Origin: Ferruginibacter paludis
Lineage (GTDB): Bacteria > Bacteroidota > Bacteroidia > Chitinophagales > Chitinophagaceae
Length of the DNA stretch: 64,000 nucleotides
Assembly: GCF_030409685.1 (NCBI RefSeq)
Contig: NZ_JAUFQJ010000023.1
Coordinates: 1-64,000 of the forward strand
Direction of reading: 5' to 3'
Part shown: positions 12,472 through 39,257 of the stretch, piece after piece
Layout: each line of letters begins with the position of its first letter
Position numbering within the stretch: position 1 is the stretch's first letter
Notes under the pieces: generated by a model
Database searches by the model: none
What the model saw: the letters and a program-made list of their open reading frames with translations, nothing else
What the model was told of the DNA's origin: nothing
Program-made: the position numbers and the translations under genes

Positions 12472-14583
12472 TTAAAATCGGTACTGCAATTGCATTTTAA
12501 TTTCAGATTTTTTATTTCCCGGTATTTCATCCAGCCCGCTGCCAATGGAAGTTTTATCCTGGTAAATACTTTGTCCCCATTTTATCCATACAGTTATTTG
12601 CTTATTCAAATCGTAATTAAAGTTGAGGTAATATCTGAAGCCCTTATCATAAAAAACAGGAATGGAGTAACTATACAACACATCATTTTCATAAGCATAT
12701 AAACGGCTTTCGTAGCCACCCGTTTCAAAATATTGCATACGCATACCGGCTGAATAATTCTTTAATGCCGGTTTATAAAGAATATCTGCAAAGGATAAAA
12801 ATCCATTTTGCGCATCCTGACCTTTTTTGTTATACCAAACCATCTCCACCCTGTTGCGGAATGTAATGGCAGAATTAATTTTATAATTAACCTGCGTTCT
12901 GAAATTTTGTTTAGGTTTATTTACAACCAGCGAAAGCAGTGATAAATCGGGATTAAAATTCTTTGATTTGGATTCCGCGTGGTACCGTACATACCATTCC
13001 AATTGTTTATTCGGTTTATAAGTTGCCTGCAACATGTAATCAGCACCTGCCGATGGGGCATCCGTTAAATATTTAAGCCAGGGAAATTTATATAAATCGG
13101 CATATACATCAATACGCCAAAAATTGGTTGGCCTTATGCTGATGCCACCGAACATTCCTTTTTCATTTACCGGTGTTGAATTTTCTGTAAAGGCACTGGA
13201 ATATAAAGCATGGTATTTTTCTGAAATGTTCCGATATAAAAAACTCAGGTCAACATTTGCATCCACACTAATGAGCAACCCGTTTACAAATGCTTTAGCA
13301 AAATTATTGGTCACCGCAGCTTCCCCAAAAAAGTGCATATTCTTAAAAGTATAGGAATAATCAATACTGTAATTGCCCAATGTATTTCCTGACAATGCAT
13401 ATAAATTATAAGGCACTGCTTCCTTATTAATCGGAAGCCGGAAATGATATTGAATTCCATTCACCCCTACATGAAAAATGTTTTTATTATATGCCAGGTT
13501 ACCACCAAAAGCAAGTTGCTGTTGTATACCTTTATCAGCGGTCTCGCTGCTGGTTCTGTGCAAGCCCGATGTTTGTAAAGAAGTAATAAAGCCATCAGTA
13601 TTAATTGTGTCCAAAGCAAAATTGCCATCCACGTTTTTGAGCGATGCGAATACCGTTGTCTCCCAGTTTTTTCTGCCAATGGTAATTCCAACTCCACGAT
13701 GAAAATTAATTTCTCCCGCGGAATTATATGGCCGTAATATTGCCAGCTGTCTTTTAATATTCGTTATATCGGCGCTTTTCTTAAAAGCAAGGCTTTGCCA
13801 TTGCGTTAAGCCCTGCCCCATGTTCACAGTAAAATCGCCCAATGCCAGTTGTTTTATAACACCAATATTTCGTGCAAATAAATGAGCTGAATAAAAATCA
13901 AATCCGTTTTTTTGAGCGCCTTTAAAAAATTGTTCTCCTGCATCCTTTTCCGCCAACAAGCCATACTGCAACAAATTTTTGTACTGGTATTTGTACCGCA
14001 CAAAAACCTTTTGCGGTGAGCCCGGATAAAAATTGTGTGCTGTTGTAGCATCTGTTCTATACCCTTTCGACTTCTCTAATCCCTCCGATGCTCTTACCAA
14101 TATTGTATTGCTTCCATTATGCAACCTTTCATTTAAAGAATGTGTCAACACAACTTTGTTGCTAACGGTAATAAATAACCGCAGTTTTTGAATGGTGATA
14201 ATATTCCATCCTGGCACGGCCTGCAACTCATACAGATTAATAAAATTGCCCAACAGGTTTCTGTAACTGATCAGGTTTTGAATTTGTAGGGGAGATAATA
14301 TCATTAGTTCTTTTAATTGTTCCGCATCGGCAGTATTCAGGTTAATTGGATCTTTTAAAAACTGTTGCATGGATTGTAAAAAAGAATCGTCTTCTGTTTC
14401 ATTATCATCATTGTTTTCGGTTATGGCCTCCAGTTGTTGTTCTGCAATGTTGGAAGGTATTTCCGGCGTTTGTGCTATTAATAATTCCGGTAATAAAATG
14501 ATAGTTCCAATCAACAGAGAATAACCCGCCACTTTTAAAGCAGCAGGTAAAATACATCCTCCATTTTTTTTAAGGCGTATCAT
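12472..14583 (-). CDS. Helix-hairpin-helix domain fused to a predicted outer-membrane beta-barrel
   Basis: 703 residues. A signal sequence ends near residue 37 (LLIA, then QT). An acidic linker follows, then at residues 80-140 a ComEA-like helix-hairpin-helix unit: NLNTADAEQL, ISYRNLLGNFINLYEL, AVPGW. The hairpin glycines of classical ComEA (GIG) are not kept, so DNA binding is uncertain. The remaining 550 residues alternate polar and aromatic residues like a large barrel and end IKMQLQYRF, an aromatic C-terminus typical of outer-membrane barrels. It overlaps the upstream barrel gene by 14 bp, so the two are coupled. Function unknown; a role at the outer membrane, possibly with DNA, is inference. 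Confidence 0.8.
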   Translation of the reverse strand: MIRLKKNGGCILPAALKVAGYSLLIGTIILLPELLIAQTPEIPSNIAEQQLEAITENNDDNETEDDSFLQSMQQFLKDPINLNTADAEQLKELMILSPLQIQNLISYRNLLGNFINLYELQAVPGWNIITIQKLRLFITVSNKVVLTHSLNERLHNGSNTILVRASEGLEKSKGYRTDATTAHNFYPGSPQKVFVRYKYQYKNLLQYGLLAEKDAGEQFFKGAQKNGFDFYSAHLFARNIGVIKQLALGDFTVNMGQGLTQWQSLAFKKSADITNIKRQLAILRPYNSAGEINFHRGVGITIGRKNWETTVFASLKNVDGNFALDTINTDGFITSLQTSGLHRTSSETADKGIQQQLAFGGNLAYNKNIFHVGVNGIQYHFRLPINKEAVPYNLYALSGNTLGNYSIDYSYTFKNMHFFGEAAVTNNFAKAFVNGLLISVDANVDLSFLYRNISEKYHALYSSAFTENSTPVNEKGMFGGISIRPTNFWRIDVYADLYKFPWLKYLTDAPSAGADYMLQATYKPNKQLEWYVRYHAESKSKNFNPDLSLLSLVVNKPKQNFRTQVNYKINSAITFRNRVEMVWYNKKGQDAQNGFLSFADILYKPALKNYSAGMRMQYFETGGYESRLYAYENDVLYSYSIPVFYDKGFRYYLNFNYDLNKQITVWIKWGQSIYQDKTSIGSGLDEIPGNKKSEIKMQLQYRF

Positions 14584-15415
14584 CTGGAGCTGATTTGGAT
14601 GGCTTTTCGAAATTAATAATCAGCAGCAGCCCCGGCGATAAACCAAGTTGCGGGTGATAGCTCCCTGTAACGTCCAATCGGAAATTATTCCATCCAACTC
14701 CAAAACCTGCATACCCGGCAGAAGTAGCGGTGGCAACACCAACCCTCGCAAAAAACTGTTTCATAAACTGGTATTGAACACCCGTATTGATATTGACAGG
14801 GAATTTTTCTTCTTTAACAATTTCAGCCCCAATAAAAAAATGATCGTTCACATCATAACCCGCCCCAACTGTAACAGCACTGTTAAGCTTTTCATCGGTT
14901 TTTGAAAATTTGCCCCCAACAGGATTGTATACATGCAGGCCAAGATTTAGCTTATCCGTGAGATGAAAAACAGTTCCTATTTCAACATTTATAACACTGG
15001 AATTTATGTAAGACGGCGCGTTGTAGTTATAGTAATTAAATTGAATGCCGACATTCAGTTTTTTACCAACGCTCCTTGCATAGGCAAGGCCTGCCTGGCT
15101 TTCATTAAAATTTTTAAACCCACTGTAATGAACAGCAACCCCGAAGTTACCGTTGGCCGTAGGAACCGCCACAGCAGCGGCATACAAGCTGGTAGCGGCA
15201 AGCAAAAATCTTCGTTCGCCATACACGCCTGCCGTAATGTTTTTCACCTGTGCTAAGGCAGCCTGGTTATTTATAAAAGATAAGGCATCAGCCTGGCGTG
15301 TACTATAAGCCGAAAGGCCAATATAGCCGGCCGAAAGCGGTTGACGGAAAGATTGTGACAAGCAGTGCGATATGGCAAAAAGTAGCAGGGCGGCTGTACA
15401 ACTATTTTTTTTCAA
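14570..15415 (-). CDS. Outer-membrane beta-barrel protein, PorV/FadL-like
   Basis: 281 residues with a signal peptide (CTAALLLFAISHCLS, cleavage near residue 21). The rest is glycine- and aromatic-rich beta strand with an N-terminal segment (GYIGLSAYSTRQADALSFINNQAALA) resembling the PorV/PorQ/UPF0164 branch of FadL-type barrels, in which an early helix plugs the pore. The C-terminal strand is PGLLLIINFE, followed by a short polar tail. It is the first gene of a pair with the HhH-barrel gene, which starts inside its last codons. Whether it is a PorV paralogue in type 9 secretion cannot be decided here. Confidence 0.75.
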   Translation of the reverse strand: MKKNSCTAALLLFAISHCLSQSFRQPLSAGYIGLSAYSTRQADALSFINNQAALAQVKNITAGVYGERRFLLAATSLYAAAVAVPTANGNFGVAVHYSGFKNFNESQAGLAYARSVGKKLNVGIQFNYYNYNAPSYINSSVINVEIGTVFHLTDKLNLGLHVYNPVGGKFSKTDEKLNSAVTVGAGYDVNDHFFIGAEIVKEEKFPVNINTGVQYQFMKQFFARVGVATATSAGYAGFGVGWNNFRLDVTGSYHPQLGLSPGLLLIINFEKPSKSAPDDTP

Positions 15416-17320: not shown

Positions 17321-19255
17321 ATGGCAATAACAAACATTACTTTTAAAAGACTGGCTTTGGTTGTATGCTCACTTTCCTGCTTTGTTGCAGTAAGTAAAGC
17401 CCAATGGTATAGTCCTGAAAAAGTAAATAAAAAAGCGTACGCTATTTATGAATCAGCATATCAAAATGCAATGGATCAAAAATATGATGCTGCCATTGCC
17501 GACATTGATAAAGCCATCAGCATTGACCCTAAATTTGTAGAAGCCTGGCTAACCAAAGCAGGAATTTACGCCGATCAGAAAAAATATGATTCTTCGGTTA
17601 TTAATTTTGAAAAAGCCTTGCAGCTGGATTCCGTGTTTGCAAAAACTTATTTGCTGCCCTACTCAATTTCACTTGCGGGCATGGGGCAATTTCAAAAAGC
17701 ATTAACAGCAATTACCGAATTTTTAACCAACCCCACACTCAATCCGCAAAGCATTAAAGCAGGCAATTACCGCAAAAGCGTGTATGAATTTGCACTGGAG
17801 TATGATAAAAAACATCCCGCAAAAAATTATGTATTTGCCCGTAAAAATTTAGGCGACAGTGTTAATTCAGATGCACTGGAATATTATCCATCCCTTACCA
17901 TTGATGGTAAAAAATTAATTTTCACCAGGCGACTTTCAGGCGATGAAGATTTTTATGAATCCGACTTTACAAATGGAAAATGGAGCAAGGCAAAACCGCT
18001 CGGAGGAAAGGTGAATACCAATTTAAATGAAGGAGCACAAAACATTTCGCAGGATGGTGAGTGGATTATTTTCACGGGATGTAATTACCCCGAAGGCCAG
18101 GGCAGCTGCGATTTATATATTTCCTTTAAAACAAAAAATGGCTGGAGCGAAGCAGAAAATATTGGCCCAATAGTAAACACCGATTTTTGGGAATCGTCGC
18201 CTTCACTCTCCCCGGATAAAAGAGATCTTTATTTTTCCAGCAACCAGTCTGGAACCTATGGTGGTAAAGACATTTGGGTAACGCACCGGAGTAATGCCGG
18301 CAAGTGGAGCCGGCCGGAAAACCTGGGACCTGTCATCAATACCAAAGGCGATGAAAGCTGCTCATTTATGTACGCCGATAACCAAACATTATTTTTTAAC
18401 AGCAACGGCCATCCCGGCTACGGTCAGACAGATTTATTCTTTTCCAAAAAAATAACAGACAGCACCTGGAGTGAACCCGAAAATTTAGGCTATCCCATCA
18501 ACACCATTGATGAAGAAGGTTCTTTGATTGTAGCTGCTGATGGGAAAACAGCCTATTACGCAAGCGACGGAAGTGACACCCGTGGCGGGTTAGATTTATA
18601 TAGTTTTCAATTAAGGGAAGATATACAACCACCCAGAACATTGTGGGTAAAAGGAAAAGTATTTGATGCCAAAACAAAAAATGGTCTGCCTTCTTCAGTT
18701 GAATTAACGGACATCAATACACGCCGTTTAGTCAGCAAAGTACAAACGGATGAAGATGGTAATTATTTAACTACACTGCCTGTAGGTAAAGATTATGCTT
18801 TCAACGTAAACCGGAAAGGATATCTCTTTTTTTCCGAGCATTATAATATTGATGCAAGTAGTGATTCAGTTTATACCGCCGATATTCCCTTGCAGCCAAT
18901 TGAAACCGGCGCTTCAATTATTTTAAAAAATATTTTTTTCGACACAAAGAAAACAGCATTAAAACCAGCGTCGATTGTTGAACTGGATAAGGTAATTCAA
19001 TTGATGAATGATAACCCGAAACTGAAAATTGTAATCACCGGCTTTACTGATAATGTTGGTAAACCACAGGATAATGTTGTGCTGTCCAACGGCAGGGCAT
19101 TGTCTGTTGTAAACTACCTGCTGGCCAGCAGGCAAATAGCCCGCGAACGACTGCAGTTTAAAGGCCTGGGTGCTGCAAAACCTATTGCAGATAACACTAC
19201 CGAGACGGGTAAAGCCCTCAATCGCAGAACGGAATTAAGCGTTATCAGCAATTAA
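17321..19255 (+). CDS. PorE-like TPR / PD40 propeller / OmpA-domain protein
   Basis: 644 residues with a signal peptide (cleavage near residue 28, VSKA then QW). Domains in order: TPR repeats (about 35-150), a PD40/WD40-like propeller (about 180-430, repeated SPSLSPDKRDLYFSSN-type blades), a carboxypeptidase-regulatory-like beta domain (about 440-525) and an OmpA-type peptidoglycan-binding domain (about 540-644, with ITGFTDNVGKPQDNVVLSNGRA and NRRTEL). This order is that of PorE, which anchors the type 9 secretion complex to peptidoglycan. Paralogues with the same order are common, so the assignment is tentative. No strict lipobox is seen, unlike PorE. dprA follows after 63 bp. Confidence 0.85.
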   Translation: MAITNITFKRLALVVCSLSCFVAVSKAQWYSPEKVNKKAYAIYESAYQNAMDQKYDAAIADIDKAISIDPKFVEAWLTKAGIYADQKKYDSSVINFEKALQLDSVFAKTYLLPYSISLAGMGQFQKALTAITEFLTNPTLNPQSIKAGNYRKSVYEFALEYDKKHPAKNYVFARKNLGDSVNSDALEYYPSLTIDGKKLIFTRRLSGDEDFYESDFTNGKWSKAKPLGGKVNTNLNEGAQNISQDGEWIIFTGCNYPEGQGSCDLYISFKTKNGWSEAENIGPIVNTDFWESSPSLSPDKRDLYFSSNQSGTYGGKDIWVTHRSNAGKWSRPENLGPVINTKGDESCSFMYADNQTLFFNSNGHPGYGQTDLFFSKKITDSTWSEPENLGYPINTIDEEGSLIVAADGKTAYYASDGSDTRGGLDLYSFQLREDIQPPRTLWVKGKVFDAKTKNGLPSSVELTDINTRRLVSKVQTDEDGNYLTTLPVGKDYAFNVNRKGYLFFSEHYNIDASSDSVYTADIPLQPIETGASIILKNIFFDTKKTALKPASIVELDKVIQLMNDNPKLKIVITGFTDNVGKPQDNVVLSNGRALSVVNYLLASRQIARERLQFKGLGAAKPIADNTTETGKALNRRTELSVISN

Positions 19256-31955: not shown

Positions 31956-34900
31956 TTATTGTGCCAGCGAAATTCTTATTTGCACACCTGCCCTTGTATT
32001 GGTAATCGGCGCACTCGATGAAATATATGGAATTACCCTTCGCTGATCAAAATATAGTTTAAGGTTTACCCTGCTATTAAGGTAATAATCAATAGTTGGC
32101 GAAAGTGTTATTTCTTTACTACCGCCTGTAGGTAATGTGGCTTCCTGGTCAAGCCGGTTGTTTACAGTAACATTGTCACGGATTTTCATATCAAACCGGA
32201 AATTGATTTCATTATCCAGTTTACCTTTCCCACCCTTGCTTAGGAACTTGGGCAACGTCAAACCACCTAGCAATCGCAGCCCTTTTTTACGGTAGCCGCC
32301 ACCAATAGAAAATTCAGTAGACCGGGTTTCGCTCAACTGGAAATCTATCAGGCTTAAACTGAGAGTACGCTGTTTTGTATAGTCAATTTTAAACTGTACC
32401 TGGTTGGTGAACATTACATCGATACCCACCAGTGGTGCAAACTGCTCTGTAATAGTGATGTTGGGAACCAAAAAGTAGGGAACATAATTTTTAGAAACCG
32501 TATCGTAAAAAGAAGGAAATCCGTACCTGAACTGATCTGCATAAAATAAGGCTGAAGTAAATCCATTCATGCTCAGGCTTCCGTTATATGCATGTGATAA
32601 GGTGATGTTACTGAATATTTTTTCCAGTCCCTTTACCCTGCTAAGGCCAGTGTAATCAATTTTCCAATTGGGCTTAGGTATAAACCCTTTGTAAGGATTT
32701 GATTTGATGTTTGGATTGCTTTGATTGATAAGGGAGATAGACTTGGGGTCTTTACCAGAATAAGCCGCAACAAATGCAGGAATCAAAACGTCTGTTGCAT
32801 AGCGGTTGTACCCATGCGCATAGCCATCCGCATCCGACGGAATACCTGCATTGTATTTGTTCGCAGTGCCCAGTCGTTGTGAAATAATTTGCCTGTACGA
32901 CTCGAACTTTTGAAACGTGGTGGAAATTCTGTTGGGATCAAATTTGCCAAACAAGGTTTTGTAGGATATAAAACTAATATCAAAACTTCCACCGGAATAA
33001 GGACTCAAGTGACCAAAATTATTGCCCGTACCGGTTGTATCTTTAAATATTTCAGAATAATTTTTACTGAACGTTTTATTGAGGTTTACAGAAATCTGCA
33101 AATCACGTATCGGCTCCAGCTGAGCAGTAACCGTCAGCCGCTGATCAAAGGATTGCTGAAAAATAGTGTTGAAATTACTGTCTCTTGTAATCAGCCCTTT
33201 CCTTGCAGCAGCACTCATCCAATTGGTATCTGGTTGATTGCCTGCAATAAAACCCATATCAGGCTGCATGCTGCGCCAGTTGCGTCCTATTTCCTGCGTG
33301 CTGTCCATATAACCGGGTAAACGGGTATTGGCATTTTCAGATAACGAAACATTTACCTGTTTTAAACTACTCACCAGTTTACCAAAAGCACGGCCCATAT
33401 TGCCTACATATGGCATGGCGTTGGGATCTTTTATTTTTCTTGTTTTGATTTTCCTGATTTGTTTAATCCTGATGCTGTCTTTCATCACATACTTATACAG
33501 CGTATCTTTTTTAATGGTGATATTTTTTTCTGTTCGCTCTGCTTTCGGTTGGTCGATGACCCTGAAAAATTTTGATTTGTTGTACAACCGGGTGAAATCC
33601 AATTGAGCGGTCGCTTCTTTGGATTGGCCGTTTTCTAAAATATTGCCAAGCTCAACAGCCAGCCTGGAAGCGCCGATCCAGCGGTAAGTAGCCTGGTATT
33701 TCAGGTTTACCGTTGTCCAGTCAAGCAGGGGAAATTTTGCTGTAGGTAACGTATAACTTACGTTCGCCGTTTGATTGTACAACGTATTTCGCCCTCCCTT
33801 AAATAAGTTTTTAATAATAGTATCCTTCTTTTCTTTTGTATCAATACGGCCGTAAGGTTCGTCAATGCGACTGTTATTGGTAGCATTAAAATCAAACATG
33901 ATGGACCGTGTAAGACCCCAGCGCAAAATATAATCCCGTTGAAAAGTGAAGTACTTGTCATAGGTTTCGGGAATTTTATATTTGTCAGATCCAACACTTC
34001 TTGGCCTGATGGCACCAAACTGCCGCTGAATATCGGCTCTGAAACTTAGCTGTGAGGGTACCGGGTTTACATTGATATCTTTTACCAAATCGAACCAATG
34101 CTTTTTGCGTTTGGTAAACAGTTTCATTTTTTTGAATGGCTCAATGTATTTTGGCTGCGGTACAAAATTGTAGCCCAAACCGCCACGGTGCCGCGTAATT
34201 TCATTGTTTTCTATCAACGGACTATGGGCTGTTATATTGATATAAGAATAACTGACATCCACATTTTCTATGTCGTAAATTTTAGGCTTTTTTGTACCCG
34301 TGCGGTTTTTGCGAACGTTCGTAAAATTCAGTGTTTTGGTACTGGTAAAATCTACTGCTGCATTTTTTATCGAGTCTCTCATTTTGGCAGGAGACACAGA
34401 CAGCTTATCTTTTAGTTTGATGTCCAGATCATATGGATCATACAACGGCTTGCTGACGGTTTGAGAAATACTGGCAAAAACAGGTATGGAGATAGCTGCT
34501 TTTTTAGGTAACAATTTTCCTAATTCCAGGTTAGCGGCTACATCAAATTGGGTCATATCATCCCTGAATCGCTCGTCTACCCTTTGTTCCAGCGTTCCAA
34601 ACCCGCTGCTATGTGTGGAAATTGAACCAGTTACGGTACCCAAATCTGCCAGGTTCATGTCCATTCTTGCCAGGGCTGCATACCCTCCTTTTTCATTGAT
34701 AGACGTAAGCCGCAGTTCGTTCACCCATATTTCGCCGCAGGCGTTCGGATTATTTACATTTTCGACACCAATCAATACGCCCCTCAGCTCGCCGAGGTTA
34801 GGATCGCCGAGTATTGAATATGTTTGACCATTGCCCTGCAGTGCACTGAAAATAACAGTCGGTGAACCCTGTACATTTCGTAGCTGTTTTAACTTGGGTA

Positions 34901-37900
34901 ACAGGGTAAGATCTACATTGAGGTTATTGATGGCCCGCCATAATGTATCGTTATAGGCATCTGTATTAGGATTCAGCGTATTGGCCCCAAGCGGCGTCAT
35001 ATACAAAGGAATTTTTATTTCGTAATAGTTGCTTACAAAGTCAGTTCCTATCCTTATAACAGCATTCAGGTCTTTGTCTTTAATACTGTTTGGACTTTTG
35101 ACATTGTTCTCTGCATGTATGTACATGCTTAAATTACCATACTGGCGAATGTCCCTGTTGGCAAAAGTTTGGAATACACCTCTTGCGTCATTCTTACCCA
35201 AAGCACAAAACTGCAGCGACATACTTTGCTCATTTTGCAACAGATTAACACCGTTGTTGCTTTGAATTTGCTGGCGCTGAATTTCTCTTGGTGTGCGGTA
35301 AGGCAACGGAGAACGTTTGTCATTTTCTTCAATGTTAACAGCCCCTACATTAAAGTCTACGTTGGTAGAAATAGGAGAATAAATTCCGGTGGTATCAATT
35401 TTATTTTTAAAGCTGCGCCAGATGTTGCGGGTTAATTCCAGTTTTCCAAAACGCATTACTACTGAGTCAGAAAAATCTGTCAGGAACATTCTTATAAAAC
35501 GAATGGATTTAAAGTCGGGTATATTACCTATTTTCCTGTTGTACGATCCGATGGGAATTTTAAACTGGTACCAGGTTTCGTTACGGGTATTGCCATTTAC
35601 CAATTTTACACCCACCACTTTTTTATCTACAATATAATTAACCCCAATCTGCATGTTCGGATCTGTTTGCGGTTTGATATCCACGATGTACTGGAAATAT
35701 TCTTCCGACTCGTTCATGGTATTGTCTTTATTCAAATCTTCTGCATCAGGATAAAGTGTTGCTGCTGATGAAAAGATAGATCCATCATTTACTTTTGAAT
35801 TACCCTGGGGATTATTGAAATTTTTATACCTTTTTAAAATCCCGTCATTGGCCGTGAAAGCAGCATCCCTGTAGTGCGTATAATCATCCTGTGAAGGATC
35901 AGCAGACACTTCCTGTAAAGCGGCACTATTAAGTACAGGGCCCAAAGCAGCAAGATAGGGTGCCCTCTTTATTTTTTCAGCAGCATCATCCAAACCGTCA
36001 AAACCAACGTCCTGGTATTGCCGTTCGTTCGCATCATTGCTAAAGGCATTGGTCACCTGTATCGGGTTTAAGGGAGCCTTACCCCAAACGGTAGTAGAAT
36101 CTACCTGAGCCGGTGCATTCGGCGTAGGCATTCCATTTTCGTAAAAACGGCGGCCATCTTTCAACACATCTTCCGAAATATTACCCAGGTTAAAATACAA
36201 TTTACCTCCCGCTGTTGGGGAGATGGGCGTTTTAATAAATGGATCCTGCACCCAAAATTCTATAAACTCTACATTGGCTGTTTCAAAATCTGTCTGATCA
36301 ATATTGCGCATTAAACCACCCCATCGTTGCGTTGGGTTTTTTAAACGGTTATTCGCATCAATACTTAAAGGAGAGGCATCAAAATTATAAGGTCCCTTCT
36401 GATCAGGATAATAGGCAAGGTCAAACGTTGTTAACTGGTTTTGTCCATAGTCAGTAGTCCGTTGAGGAAAAATTTCACTCTGACTTATCAGGCGCACCTG
36501 CGGATCGCTCAGTTCGTCCCTGTTATTGCCGAGCGGGTTATTAGCCCCTTTATACAGTTGCAAAGCTGGCTCAATCTGGTACCAGGCTAGTTTAGCCCTG
36601 TTCTTTCCATAATCCAGGTTATTATTTAATTTTCCTTCCTTAAAAATTTCATTACCCGCCTCATCAGTGGCACCCTGCGGAGTAGAAGCAAGTCCCCAGC
36701 TGATGGCAGGAAAGCGAAGGTCAATACCAGATTTACTTCCTTCAAAATCATCAATGTACACAGCACCTGCGGAGCCCTTGCCTATTTGCGAAGCATGCCC
36801 GGGTTGCAGGTAAGCGCCTTCTGCATAAAAATTAATGGTTGATGGTGCAGTGGTTGAATAGAACGGGAGCTTATCCAACAACTTAGTAATTCTTGGTGTT
36901 TCTTTCCGGTAATTCACATCCAGCCCGTACATGGTATTTTTTATCGGGTCTTCGCCAATATTATTTTTTGTAAAAAAAGGTCGCTCGCTTAACCGGACAA
37001 TGGTACCACCGATGGCCAGTTGTTCTTTCAGGGTATTTTTCGCCAGGTAATCCAGCCGCAATCCTAAAAAAGATTTTTGCTGCAAGCCGTAACCGGCATT
37101 ATTTTCAAAGTTTACTTGAACTGGTAAACCTGCATTCAAAATGGCTTGGTTGGTAACTTTAATGGTACCAAGGTCATAATTAATATCATAGTCTACTCCT
37201 TCGGTTAATGTTTGTCCGCCTGCGGTTACTTTAACACTGCCCTTTGGAATATTATAACCAATGCTGATATCGGATGAGCCCGAAGTTTTGGCAGACCCCT
37301 TCATTACAAACCGGTTCAGATTTGGGTATTGCTGCGCCACTGCCTTAATGGAATCATACAATGCATAATACAACGTATCCTTGGCTGTTGCAGGTATCAC
37401 ATTGTATATCTGTGTCGCAAGGTCGCGGCCAAAAGGCTCCAATACAGGAAACACAATTCTGCTGTATTGTGATATAACTGTAAAGCCCTCCACATAATCA
37501 AATACACCATCCGGCTGCGGATCCCGGTTACTGTTAAGCCGGTCTAAATTTACCAGTGTTAAAATAGGTGTACCCTGGTTTTTATCGCCGAAAGGCACAT
37601 ATCTTTTTGCTCCGAGGCTTGGTTCCTGGTATAACAAATTCAGTTTAAAATCTGTTGGAGTCAGTACACCATAACCAACAGAATAAACGTTTTTCATCAT
37701 CAGTTGCCAGATAGGTAATTGGGTACGCTGGGACGTTGCTTTTAATAATTTTAGAAACAACACCTTTTGTGTAGCCGAAGTGCTGTCTGGCGGAAGATCC
37801 TGTGAAAATTCACCCACCTGGTACGTATGCCCGTTATAAGAGTATTGATAAGCTACGGCCAGTACCTCATCCGATTGCAGGGGCTGACTTAAAGAAATAT

Positions 37901-39257
37901 ATCCCGCCTGCCGGTTAAAAACATACGCGGTTGAATCCAGTTTCCGGGCAAATGTCTTCTCAAAATCCTGTACCGGCGCAAGGCCCAAAGCCTGCAGATT
38001 ACTAACCACCAAAGCGGGGTTTCTGTTATTGCCGTTAGTTATTATTTTACTATAAAGGTCATTGGTTCCATTTTGTGGGGGAGCAAAATTGCTTATCACA
38101 TTGATTGTTGGCGGAGCACGAAACGGATTTTTTTCGCCCAGGTCCATTAAGCCGACGATGTCTCTTGTATTGGTTGTTCCACCATTTTTATTGGTCACCC
38201 AAACCTCTAACCTAAGAATTTGCACAGGCGTTGTCACAGCTGGCAGTTTCGCCAATACCTTGTTATAGTTGTCTTTAAAATACTGGCCCAGTAAAAAGTG
38301 ACGGTTCTCTTCGTATTCATCTGCTTTAATGTCTATCACCTGCGAAGCCGCGCCACCCTGCAGGTTGGCTGTTTGCCTTGCTGATTTTTGATAGGCCAAT
38401 ACAGAAGTTACATTCAGTTTACCAAACTGTAACTGTGTTTTTAAACCAAATAACTGCTGCGCTCCGGGAATAAAAGTACTGCGGGAGCTAAATGTAACAG
38501 CCCCTGCTTCAATACGTTTTATAATTTCATCATCCACGCCCGAATAGTCGAGCTTTAACTGGTTATCCTGCCCAAAATTGGCAAGTGTGTTGTAGTTGAT
38601 GGGAAATTTTAATTTGTCGCCGATATTGGCATTTACATTTACCTGGGCGGCCATATTAAAATCGAAGCCGCCATTCTTCCTGGCTCTTTCCGGCAGTGTG
38701 GGATTTTTTATATTTTGTCCCTGGTAACCTGCGGTAATATCCACGTTGCCCTGTGGCGCTATATCAATTTTACCATTGCCAAATAAGCGGTTAAAAAGGT
38801 TATCATACAACGACATTTTGGGCTTGGTCAGTTTGCGGTTCAACAAATTCATTGTGTTGGCCCGCTTCTTAAAATAATCCAGTTCCGCCTGTTTGTTTTT
38901 CAACGCCCAGTATTCATCAAAAGTGTATGTGGTGGGAGTACGGTAATATTTGTTGCCTATTTTTTCGTAGAGGGTATATAAATGTGTTTCAGGATCGTAT
39001 GCAACGGAATCTGTAATGTTGGATGGCTTTTTAAAATCCAGGGTATTTTTAATACCGCTGTTCATAAAATCATTGCGGGTATCATGAATGGGATACGGCA
39101 GTCCCTTTGGCGGAATGGTATCGCCTATAGCAGGCAAATTTCTGCCTGAAGGGGTATTATTTTGTGCCGAAATGGAAAGTGAAATTGAAAGTAAAACCAC
39201 TAACTGTCCCAACCCAAAGCCAATTACTTTTGGTAACAATTTTCTTTTAAAAAACAT
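31956..39257 (-). CDS. sprA: Type 9 secretion translocon SprA/Sov
   Basis: Giant outer-membrane barrel that carries type 9 substrates across the outer membrane. 2433 residues, close to F. johnsoniae SprA and P. gingivalis Sov (about 2400-2500). A signal peptide (cleavage near residue 31, SISA then QN) is followed by the conserved N-terminal region (DTRNDFMNSGIKNTLDFKKPSNI), repeated domains with GAVYIDDFEGSKSGIDLR and GEIWVNELRLT signatures, and a barrel ending in VQIRISLAQ. It lies 28 bp downstream of ruvA on the same strand, the arrangement seen in other Bacteroidota. No frameshift is visible. Confidence 0.97.
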   Translation of the reverse strand: MFFKRKLLPKVIGFGLGQLVVLLSISLSISAQNNTPSGRNLPAIGDTIPPKGLPYPIHDTRNDFMNSGIKNTLDFKKPSNITDSVAYDPETHLYTLYEKIGNKYYRTPTTYTFDEYWALKNKQAELDYFKKRANTMNLLNRKLTKPKMSLYDNLFNRLFGNGKIDIAPQGNVDITAGYQGQNIKNPTLPERARKNGGFDFNMAAQVNVNANIGDKLKFPINYNTLANFGQDNQLKLDYSGVDDEIIKRIEAGAVTFSSRSTFIPGAQQLFGLKTQLQFGKLNVTSVLAYQKSARQTANLQGGAASQVIDIKADEYEENRHFLLGQYFKDNYNKVLAKLPAVTTPVQILRLEVWVTNKNGGTTNTRDIVGLMDLGEKNPFRAPPTINVISNFAPPQNGTNDLYSKIITNGNNRNPALVVSNLQALGLAPVQDFEKTFARKLDSTAYVFNRQAGYISLSQPLQSDEVLAVAYQYSYNGHTYQVGEFSQDLPPDSTSATQKVLFLKLLKATSQRTQLPIWQLMMKNVYSVGYGVLTPTDFKLNLLYQEPSLGAKRYVPFGDKNQGTPILTLVNLDRLNSNRDPQPDGVFDYVEGFTVISQYSRIVFPVLEPFGRDLATQIYNVIPATAKDTLYYALYDSIKAVAQQYPNLNRFVMKGSAKTSGSSDISIGYNIPKGSVKVTAGGQTLTEGVDYDINYDLGTIKVTNQAILNAGLPVQVNFENNAGYGLQQKSFLGLRLDYLAKNTLKEQLAIGGTIVRLSERPFFTKNNIGEDPIKNTMYGLDVNYRKETPRITKLLDKLPFYSTTAPSTINFYAEGAYLQPGHASQIGKGSAGAVYIDDFEGSKSGIDLRFPAISWGLASTPQGATDEAGNEIFKEGKLNNNLDYGKNRAKLAWYQIEPALQLYKGANNPLGNNRDELSDPQVRLISQSEIFPQRTTDYGQNQLTTFDLAYYPDQKGPYNFDASPLSIDANNRLKNPTQRWGGLMRNIDQTDFETANVEFIEFWVQDPFIKTPISPTAGGKLYFNLGNISEDVLKDGRRFYENGMPTPNAPAQVDSTTVWGKAPLNPIQVTNAFSNDANERQYQDVGFDGLDDAAEKIKRAPYLAALGPVLNSAALQEVSADPSQDDYTHYRDAAFTANDGILKRYKNFNNPQGNSKVNDGSIFSSAATLYPDAEDLNKDNTMNESEEYFQYIVDIKPQTDPNMQIGVNYIVDKKVVGVKLVNGNTRNETWYQFKIPIGSYNRKIGNIPDFKSIRFIRMFLTDFSDSVVMRFGKLELTRNIWRSFKNKIDTTGIYSPISTNVDFNVGAVNIEENDKRSPLPYRTPREIQRQQIQSNNGVNLLQNEQSMSLQFCALGKNDARGVFQTFANRDIRQYGNLSMYIHAENNVKSPNSIKDKDLNAVIRIGTDFVSNYYEIKIPLYMTPLGANTLNPNTDAYNDTLWRAINNLNVDLTLLPKLKQLRNVQGSPTVIFSALQGNGQTYSILGDPNLGELRGVLIGVENVNNPNACGEIWVNELRLTSINEKGGYAALARMDMNLADLGTVTGSISTHSSGFGTLEQRVDERFRDDMTQFDVAANLELGKLLPKKAAISIPVFASISQTVSKPLYDPYDLDIKLKDKLSVSPAKMRDSIKNAAVDFTSTKTLNFTNVRKNRTGTKKPKIYDIENVDVSYSYINITAHSPLIENNEITRHRGGLGYNFVPQPKYIEPFKKMKLFTKRKKHWFDLVKDINVNPVPSQLSFRADIQRQFGAIRPRSVGSDKYKIPETYDKYFTFQRDYILRWGLTRSIMFDFNATNNSRIDEPYGRIDTKEKKDTIIKNLFKGGRNTLYNQTANVSYTLPTAKFPLLDWTTVNLKYQATYRWIGASRLAVELGNILENGQSKEATAQLDFTRLYNKSKFFRVIDQPKAERTEKNITIKKDTLYKYVMKDSIRIKQIRKIKTRKIKDPNAMPYVGNMGRAFGKLVSSLKQVNVSLSENANTRLPGYMDSTQEIGRNWRSMQPDMGFIAGNQPDTNWMSAAARKGLITRDSNFNTIFQQSFDQRLTVTAQLEPIRDLQISVNLNKTFSKNYSEIFKDTTGTGNNFGHLSPYSGGSFDISFISYKTLFGKFDPNRISTTFQKFESYRQIISQRLGTANKYNAGIPSDADGYAHGYNRYATDVLIPAFVAAYSGKDPKSISLINQSNPNIKSNPYKGFIPKPNWKIDYTGLSRVKGLEKIFSNITLSHAYNGSLSMNGFTSALFYADQFRYGFPSFYDTVSKNYVPYFLVPNITITEQFAPLVGIDVMFTNQVQFKIDYTKQRTLSLSLIDFQLSETRSTEFSIGGGYRKKGLRLLGGLTLPKFLSKGGKGKLDNEINFRFDMKIRDNVTVNNRLDQEATLPTGGSKEITLSPTIDYYLNSRVNLKLYFDQRRVIPYISSSAPITNTRAGVQIRISLAQ

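Follow-up and report, generated by a model that had tools for sequence, protein, structure and literature searches.

Overlapping genes for two predicted barrel proteins

The reverse strand of the window, i.e. the whole 64,000-nucleotide stretch of Ferruginibacter paludis DNA that was analyzed, carries two overlapping genes, here called H and F, with the following features.

12472..14583, minus strand: H, a 703-aa protein with a helix-hairpin-helix (HhH) segment and a barrel (open reading frame call, HHH_3 match, structure model)
14164..14349, minus strand: part of H that codes for the HhH (residues 79-140), which is acidic across the family and lacks the first G-h-G hairpin
12478..14112, minus strand: barrel-coding part of H, residues 158-702 (structure model)
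14570..15415, minus strand: F, a 281-aa PorV/FadL-like 14-strand barrel with a TTG start, overlapping H by 14 bp

The two open reading frames share 14 bp, which agrees with the leftward pair described in the initial annotation. Read by eye, H has a signal peptide at about residues 14-38 and an acidic linker at about 44-66. The family HHH_3 (PF12836) matched residues 79-139 with an E-value of 2.7e-9 and 37.4 bits (gathering cut-off 27), and 53 of the 56 members of the H family matched it as well (E 0.01). The structure of H alone was predicted from an alignment of 56 sequences with a mean pLDDT of 89.7 and a pTM of 0.86. The model contains a helix cluster of the HhH at about residues 87-134, followed by 24 long strands from residue 158 to 702 (our count from the secondary structure of the model). 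The barrel that the initial annotation had placed in residues 150-703, behind an HhH domain, is thus present in the model. H ends in QYRF with an aromatic last residue. With a signal peptide recognized by eye, an even number of modelled strands and this C-terminus, it is predicted to be an outer-membrane beta-barrel protein.

A Pfam scan of the barrel part matched no family in 55 of the 56 members of the H family, the exception being a match to BBP2_2. The fold search with H returned porins, AlgE (Z 15.9, 287 residues aligned, rmsd 5.5), TonB receptors and the usher FimD (entries 9fxb and 9fx8, Z 13.6, 349 and 369 residues aligned, rmsd 3.8). Many large barrels score alike in this search and therefore no function is deducible from the fold; absence of a family from the match lists does not exclude that family. 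A description of the HhH-barrel protein was not found in a literature search. As it stands, H represents an uncharacterised protein family of unusual architecture, and its standing as a new kind of DNA gate is conditional on its function.

The structure model of F shows 14 strands (pLDDT 89.2). FadL entries were its best matches in the fold search and PorV (8gl6_F) ranked eighth, in line with the FadL/PorV-like partner named in the initial annotation. F also matched, weakly, chains from two BAM structures of Bacteroidota (9hiv_F, 9n2d_B). The PorV/PorQ family NF033709 (NCBIfam) matched F with 27.1 bits, under its cut-off of 90, and was matched by 34 of 41 F relatives at an E-value of 0.01 or better.

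The HhH segment was analyzed for its potential to bind DNA. Over 121 distinct family sequences its median net charge is -1 and its median pI 5.7. Seven standalone ComEA-like domains carry net charges of +6, +5, +5, +4, +3, +2 and -2; an eighth, L079, was left out of these values as a piece of a frame-broken H. The H gene concerned (L079:5929-8030) is broken into two open frames in that record. In a comparison group of 25 longer HhH proteins, presumably mostly Tex to judge by their length and including two motifs of the window genome's own three-HhH protein (+1, +1), the median charge is +4. In the window protein, ILSP stands at the first hairpin, so that the G-h-G motif is lost, as the initial annotation had observed for the hairpin glycines typical of ComEA. 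Most of the displayed class relatives have lost this motif too, and a few deep relatives keep it or are basic. The HhH of H thus lacks the first G-h-G hairpin and the basic make-up expected of a DNA-binding HhH. Scores of H against the ComEA models are under the cut-offs (TIGR01259, 25.7 of 152.35 bits; TIGR00426, 21.1 of 53.1 bits). The same genome also encodes a 319-aa ComEA-like protein, distinct from H, that contains three HhH stretches; it resembles Riemerella RA0C_RS02645 as that protein is described in PMC8459023. Judged from its sequence, the HhH of the window protein is unlikely to bind DNA. The binding of DNA that the initial annotation had envisaged at this place is not supported, given the negative net charge and the lost first hairpin; for this task the genome has the separate ComEA-like protein. 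Due to its acidity and the loss of the first G-h-G hairpin, the segment is more likely to act as a gate or a dock than as a clamp that grips DNA.

Conservation of the pair and its distribution relative to the type IX secretion system

The search of genome contigs yielded 283 relatives of H, of which 80 were kept. The search for such HhH-barrel fusions across the phylum, to which the initial annotation had pointed, was productive: a protein search matched H in 222 of 296 genomes and in 44 of 50 sampled families, and only 13 of the positive genomes had more than one match. A profile recheck covered 58 of the 74 H-negative genomes, plus G115 and G041. A barrel-range match was gained in 12 of the 58, none of them in families f1, f3, f4 or f5. 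The phylum counts of H are therefore lower bounds. In families f4 and f5 (35 genomes) the first search found no H at all, and the 24 of these genomes retested with the profile gave no barrel-range match. Two degraded copies were noted. An H-like match at G323:C1:833116-834783 is interrupted in frame by 12 TGA codons and by no other stop codon, reflecting either decay or recoded TGA, and G115:C3:44297-44904 holds decayed H fragments in a small genome that carries DUF5689 (see below).

Of the 79 loci that extend far enough, 78 have F upstream of H. If the earliest possible start codons are taken, 49 of these 78 pairs share 4 bp. When about 6 kb of flank was fetched for 40 H loci from 30 families, F was found in 27. 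The gene dprA, whose vicinity had been cited in the initial annotation, is conserved at some distance from H (in 41 of the 55 loci that extend far enough), but it is encoded on the strand opposite to F and H and does not belong to the pair. The gene downstream of H differs between families, and outside family f3 no common function was seen among the genes directly 3' of H.

These data bear on two alternatives to a role in DNA uptake. The main rival is that F and H form a transporter or porin for nutrients or metabolites, in which the HhH serves as a plug or docking module and both the comEC operon and the exclusion of DUF5689 described below are incidental. The porins, AlgE and TonB receptors among the fold matches of H (which also include the usher FimD), the FadL-like nature of F, the family-specific gene 3' of H and the acidic HhH are consistent with it. 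However, nutrient receptors of these bacteria are multi-copy, unlike the mostly single and phylum-wide conserved H, and chance would have to account for both the comEC operon and the exclusion pattern. We consider this explanation rather unlikely. The second alternative is a role in outer-membrane biogenesis or envelope integrity, i.e. assembly or lipid export, with loss tolerated in some lineages. It would accommodate a widespread, mostly single-copy H and the weak matches of F to the BAM-entry chains, but not readily the absence of H from every f4 and f5 genome, and appears improbable.

A role in the type IX secretion system (T9SS) as the main reading was suggested by the PorV-like F, by porD and by the nearby sprA. 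In the window, sprA is found at 31965-39041 (minus strand; TIGR04189, 2392.8 bits). A TPR/PD40/OmpA protein at 17321-19255 (plus strand) is PorE-like with a score well below the cut-off (256.7 of 600 bits); such a gene precedes folD in 60 of the 65 loci that extend far enough. A porD gene, defined by a BLAST cluster of which two members were scanned and both scored above the NCBI PorD cut-off, accompanies H at a short distance, on the other strand, in 20 of 40 loci (16 families). The cross-table with SprA overturned this reading. In the first search of the 296 genomes, H and SprA occurred together in 154, H without SprA in 68, SprA without H in 73, and neither in one. In family f17, H is present throughout (65 of 65 genomes) and a SprA match was obtained in none; these are green sulfur bacteria, as the bacteriochlorophyll A protein (PF02327) was present in the six of six genomes tested. 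Within the class of the window F occurs in 23 of 31 H-bearing genomes and in none of the 42 without H; SprA is present in 41 of these 42. Thus, in this class F tracks H and not the T9SS. In the phylum, F occurred without H in 16 genomes (first search), none of them in the class of the window. That F and H form a T9SS accessory, a second translocon-plus-shuttle like SprA-PorV, would agree with the closeness of F to PorV/PorQ in sequence and with the nearby porD, sprA and PorE-like genes, but given the independent occurrence of H and SprA it has only a small probability.

Association with comEC and alternation with DUF5689

All four H-bearing genomes of family f3 (G122, G002, G080 and G138, from three genera) carry comEC directly after H on the same strand, with a spacing between an overlap of 10 bp and a gap of 3 bp. 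The ComEC identity is based on PF03772 in G122 and G002 and on similarity only in G080 and G138. The pair was not found in H loci of other families, and the comEC flanks of 20 further genomes, 11 of them H-bearing, contained neither F nor a barrel-bearing H. The adjacency in family f3 is likely to be one ancestral event. Co-occurrence with comEC, which the initial annotation had put forward as informative, was determined as well, but comEC is present in 288 of 296 phylum genomes and the comparison therefore has almost no power. Seven of the eight comEC-less genomes (G167, G207, G215, G246, G258, G270 and G278) belong to family f37, a single lineage, and were also without H in the first search; five were retested with the profile, and G246 gave HhH-range matches. 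In a separate observation, comEC of G158 (L271:5286-8170) overlaps a gene for a three-HhH ComEA-like protein by 4 bp.

No secretin was found in any of the 10 H-bearing genomes of the class that were tested, the genome of the window included. One of two H-less class genomes and one of two green sulfur genomes tested contained one. The genome of the window possesses comEC, dprA and the three-HhH ComEA-like protein and showed no DUF5689 match at an E-value of 1e-5. Chlorobaculum tepidum, a green sulfur bacterium, is naturally transformed in practice according to PMC3842273; the H counts for this group refer to the 65 sampled f17 genomes.

In Riemerella anatipestifer, RA0C_RS04915 and RA0C_RS04920 form an outer-membrane transformation pair. 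The latter is essential for transformation and belongs to the family DUF5689 (PF18942), and the receptor of the pair, RA0C_RS04915, is reported only in Flavobacteriaceae (PMC8459023). DUF5689 was detected in 45 of the 296 phylum genomes (cut-off E 1e-20), and 36 of the 296 have neither H nor DUF5689. Among 175 Chitinophagaceae, six genomes contain an intact H together with DUF5689, 68 H only, 77 DUF5689 only and 24 neither (Fisher p 1e-20, uncorrected). Counted by genus (n=92), the corresponding numbers are 5, 31, 41 and 15 (p 3e-8). In the Chitinophagaceae table the degraded H of G115 and G323 was counted as H-less, and the DUF5689 match of G381, weak at E 1.8e-27, was kept. In the class of the window (73 genomes), 38 genomes have DUF5689 only, 24 H only, seven both and four neither, so that 69 of 73 carry one or both.

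To assess the influence of kinship, a SprA tree was built. It covers 36 genomes of the class (n=73); the four that have no SprA match (G002, G230, G238 and G269) and 33 others were left out. G115 was counted as H-less on the tree too, and as H-bearing in the phylum and class tables. The state of H changed at least five times on this tree and that of DUF5689 at least eight times. The H-less, DUF5689-bearing Chitinophagaceae occupy three separate places, one of which is G115 with its decayed H. Five independent pairs differing in H gave no pair with a change of DUF5689 in the same direction, a mean of 3.3 in the opposite direction (range 1 to 4 over 200 pairings) and 1.7 without difference. The sign test on these pairs, which are too few to reach 0.05, had a median p of 0.25, and Pagel's test a likelihood ratio of 10.9 (p 0.027). 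The exclusion between H and DUF5689 rests partly on shared ancestry.

Twelve DUF5689 loci were read by eye. In nine (L209-L214, L216, L218 and L220, from Chitinophagaceae and other families) a receptor-like gene of about 850-960 aa and an endonuclease/exonuclease/phosphatase gene adjoin; one locus has the receptor-like gene only and two differ. Pfam confirmed two loci, with PF19580 for the endonuclease/exonuclease/phosphatase gene. The combination of DUF5689 with a receptor-like gene matches the published Riemerella pair. The nuclease-type genes in nine of the 12 loci would also suit an import of DNA as a nutrient and not for transformation, an explanation that otherwise draws on the same support as a DNA-uptake module. 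As the comEC operon points to cytoplasmic entry, it is highly improbable.

A possible outer-membrane gate for DNA and related systems

The neighbours of H and its near exclusion with DUF5689 suggest that H admits DNA to the cell. The simplest account of the distribution would be that the receptor/DUF5689 pair and H serve a common function in the outer membrane, which, based on the comEC operon of family f3, we read as DNA uptake. Our leading, still tentative explanation, which we would rate at somewhat below an even chance, is that F and H form an outer-membrane module that brings DNA into the periplasm during natural transformation. The pair would take the place held in Flavobacteriia by the TonB-receptor-like/DUF5689 pair. 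Double-stranded DNA would pass the 24-strand barrel of H, and the acidic HhH at its periplasmic mouth might gate the passage or offer a docking site to the three-HhH ComEA-like protein, from where the DNA would be handed to ComEC and DprA. The PorV-like F probably stabilises H or aids its assembly, since H occurs without F and, in the class of the window, F was not found without H. The DNA-uptake gate considered in the initial annotation has thereby gained the f3 comEC operon, the near exclusion with DUF5689 and the lack of a secretin in 10 of 10 genomes, while the acidic HhH with its lost hairpin counts against it. So do the probably single origin of the f3 operon, the part of the exclusion that stems from shared ancestry, the genomes with both or neither of H and DUF5689, the neighbouring porD, the likeness of F to PorV/PorQ and its occurrence without H elsewhere in the phylum, the single lineage behind the f37 genomes and the secretin of one green sulfur genome.

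A more far-reaching version, to which we give a somewhat lower probability, is that H represents a new type of gate for DNA in the outer membrane, in which a 24-strand barrel carries an HhH module on its periplasmic side. This gate would do the task of secretins, be ancestral in Bacteroidota and green sulfur bacteria and have been repeatedly replaced by the TonB-receptor/DUF5689 system. The setting for both versions is the route of DNA across the outer membrane in the secretin-less bacteria of this phylum. If H is the gate, 44 of the 50 sampled families would possess one, and uptake would be explained in genomes that have comEC, a ComEA-like protein and dprA and no known outer-membrane step.

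Several known systems are comparable in part. ComEA (TIGR01259, TIGR00426; PDB 8dss, 8dfk) shares the HhH superfamily with H, but the HhH of H is acidic, lacks the first hairpin, is fused to a barrel and scores far below the ComEA cut-offs. PorV/PorQ (NF033709, NF033710, NF033711) are FadL-type 14-strand barrels like F, which is far under the NF033709 cut-off and in the class of the window accompanies H and not the T9SS. The SprA-PorV translocon likewise combines a large barrel with a PorV-like partner. However, SprA is far larger (2,319-position model), its barrel has 36 strands compared with the 24 counted by us in H, and the distribution of H is independent of it. The Riemerella pair resembles F-H in that an outer-membrane barrel gene has an adjacent partner, and its DUF5689 family alternates with H across Chitinophagaceae genomes. 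The two differ in domain content: RS04915 has a carboxypeptidase-regulatory domain and RS04920 is DUF5689 (PMC8459023), the receptor relatives read here show a weak TonB plug match too, and H and F contained neither the carboxypeptidase-regulatory nor the DUF5689 Pfam domain at an E-value of 1. The PilQ-type secretin of classical competence, finally, has the same task as the one proposed for H, but the fold of H is a different one.
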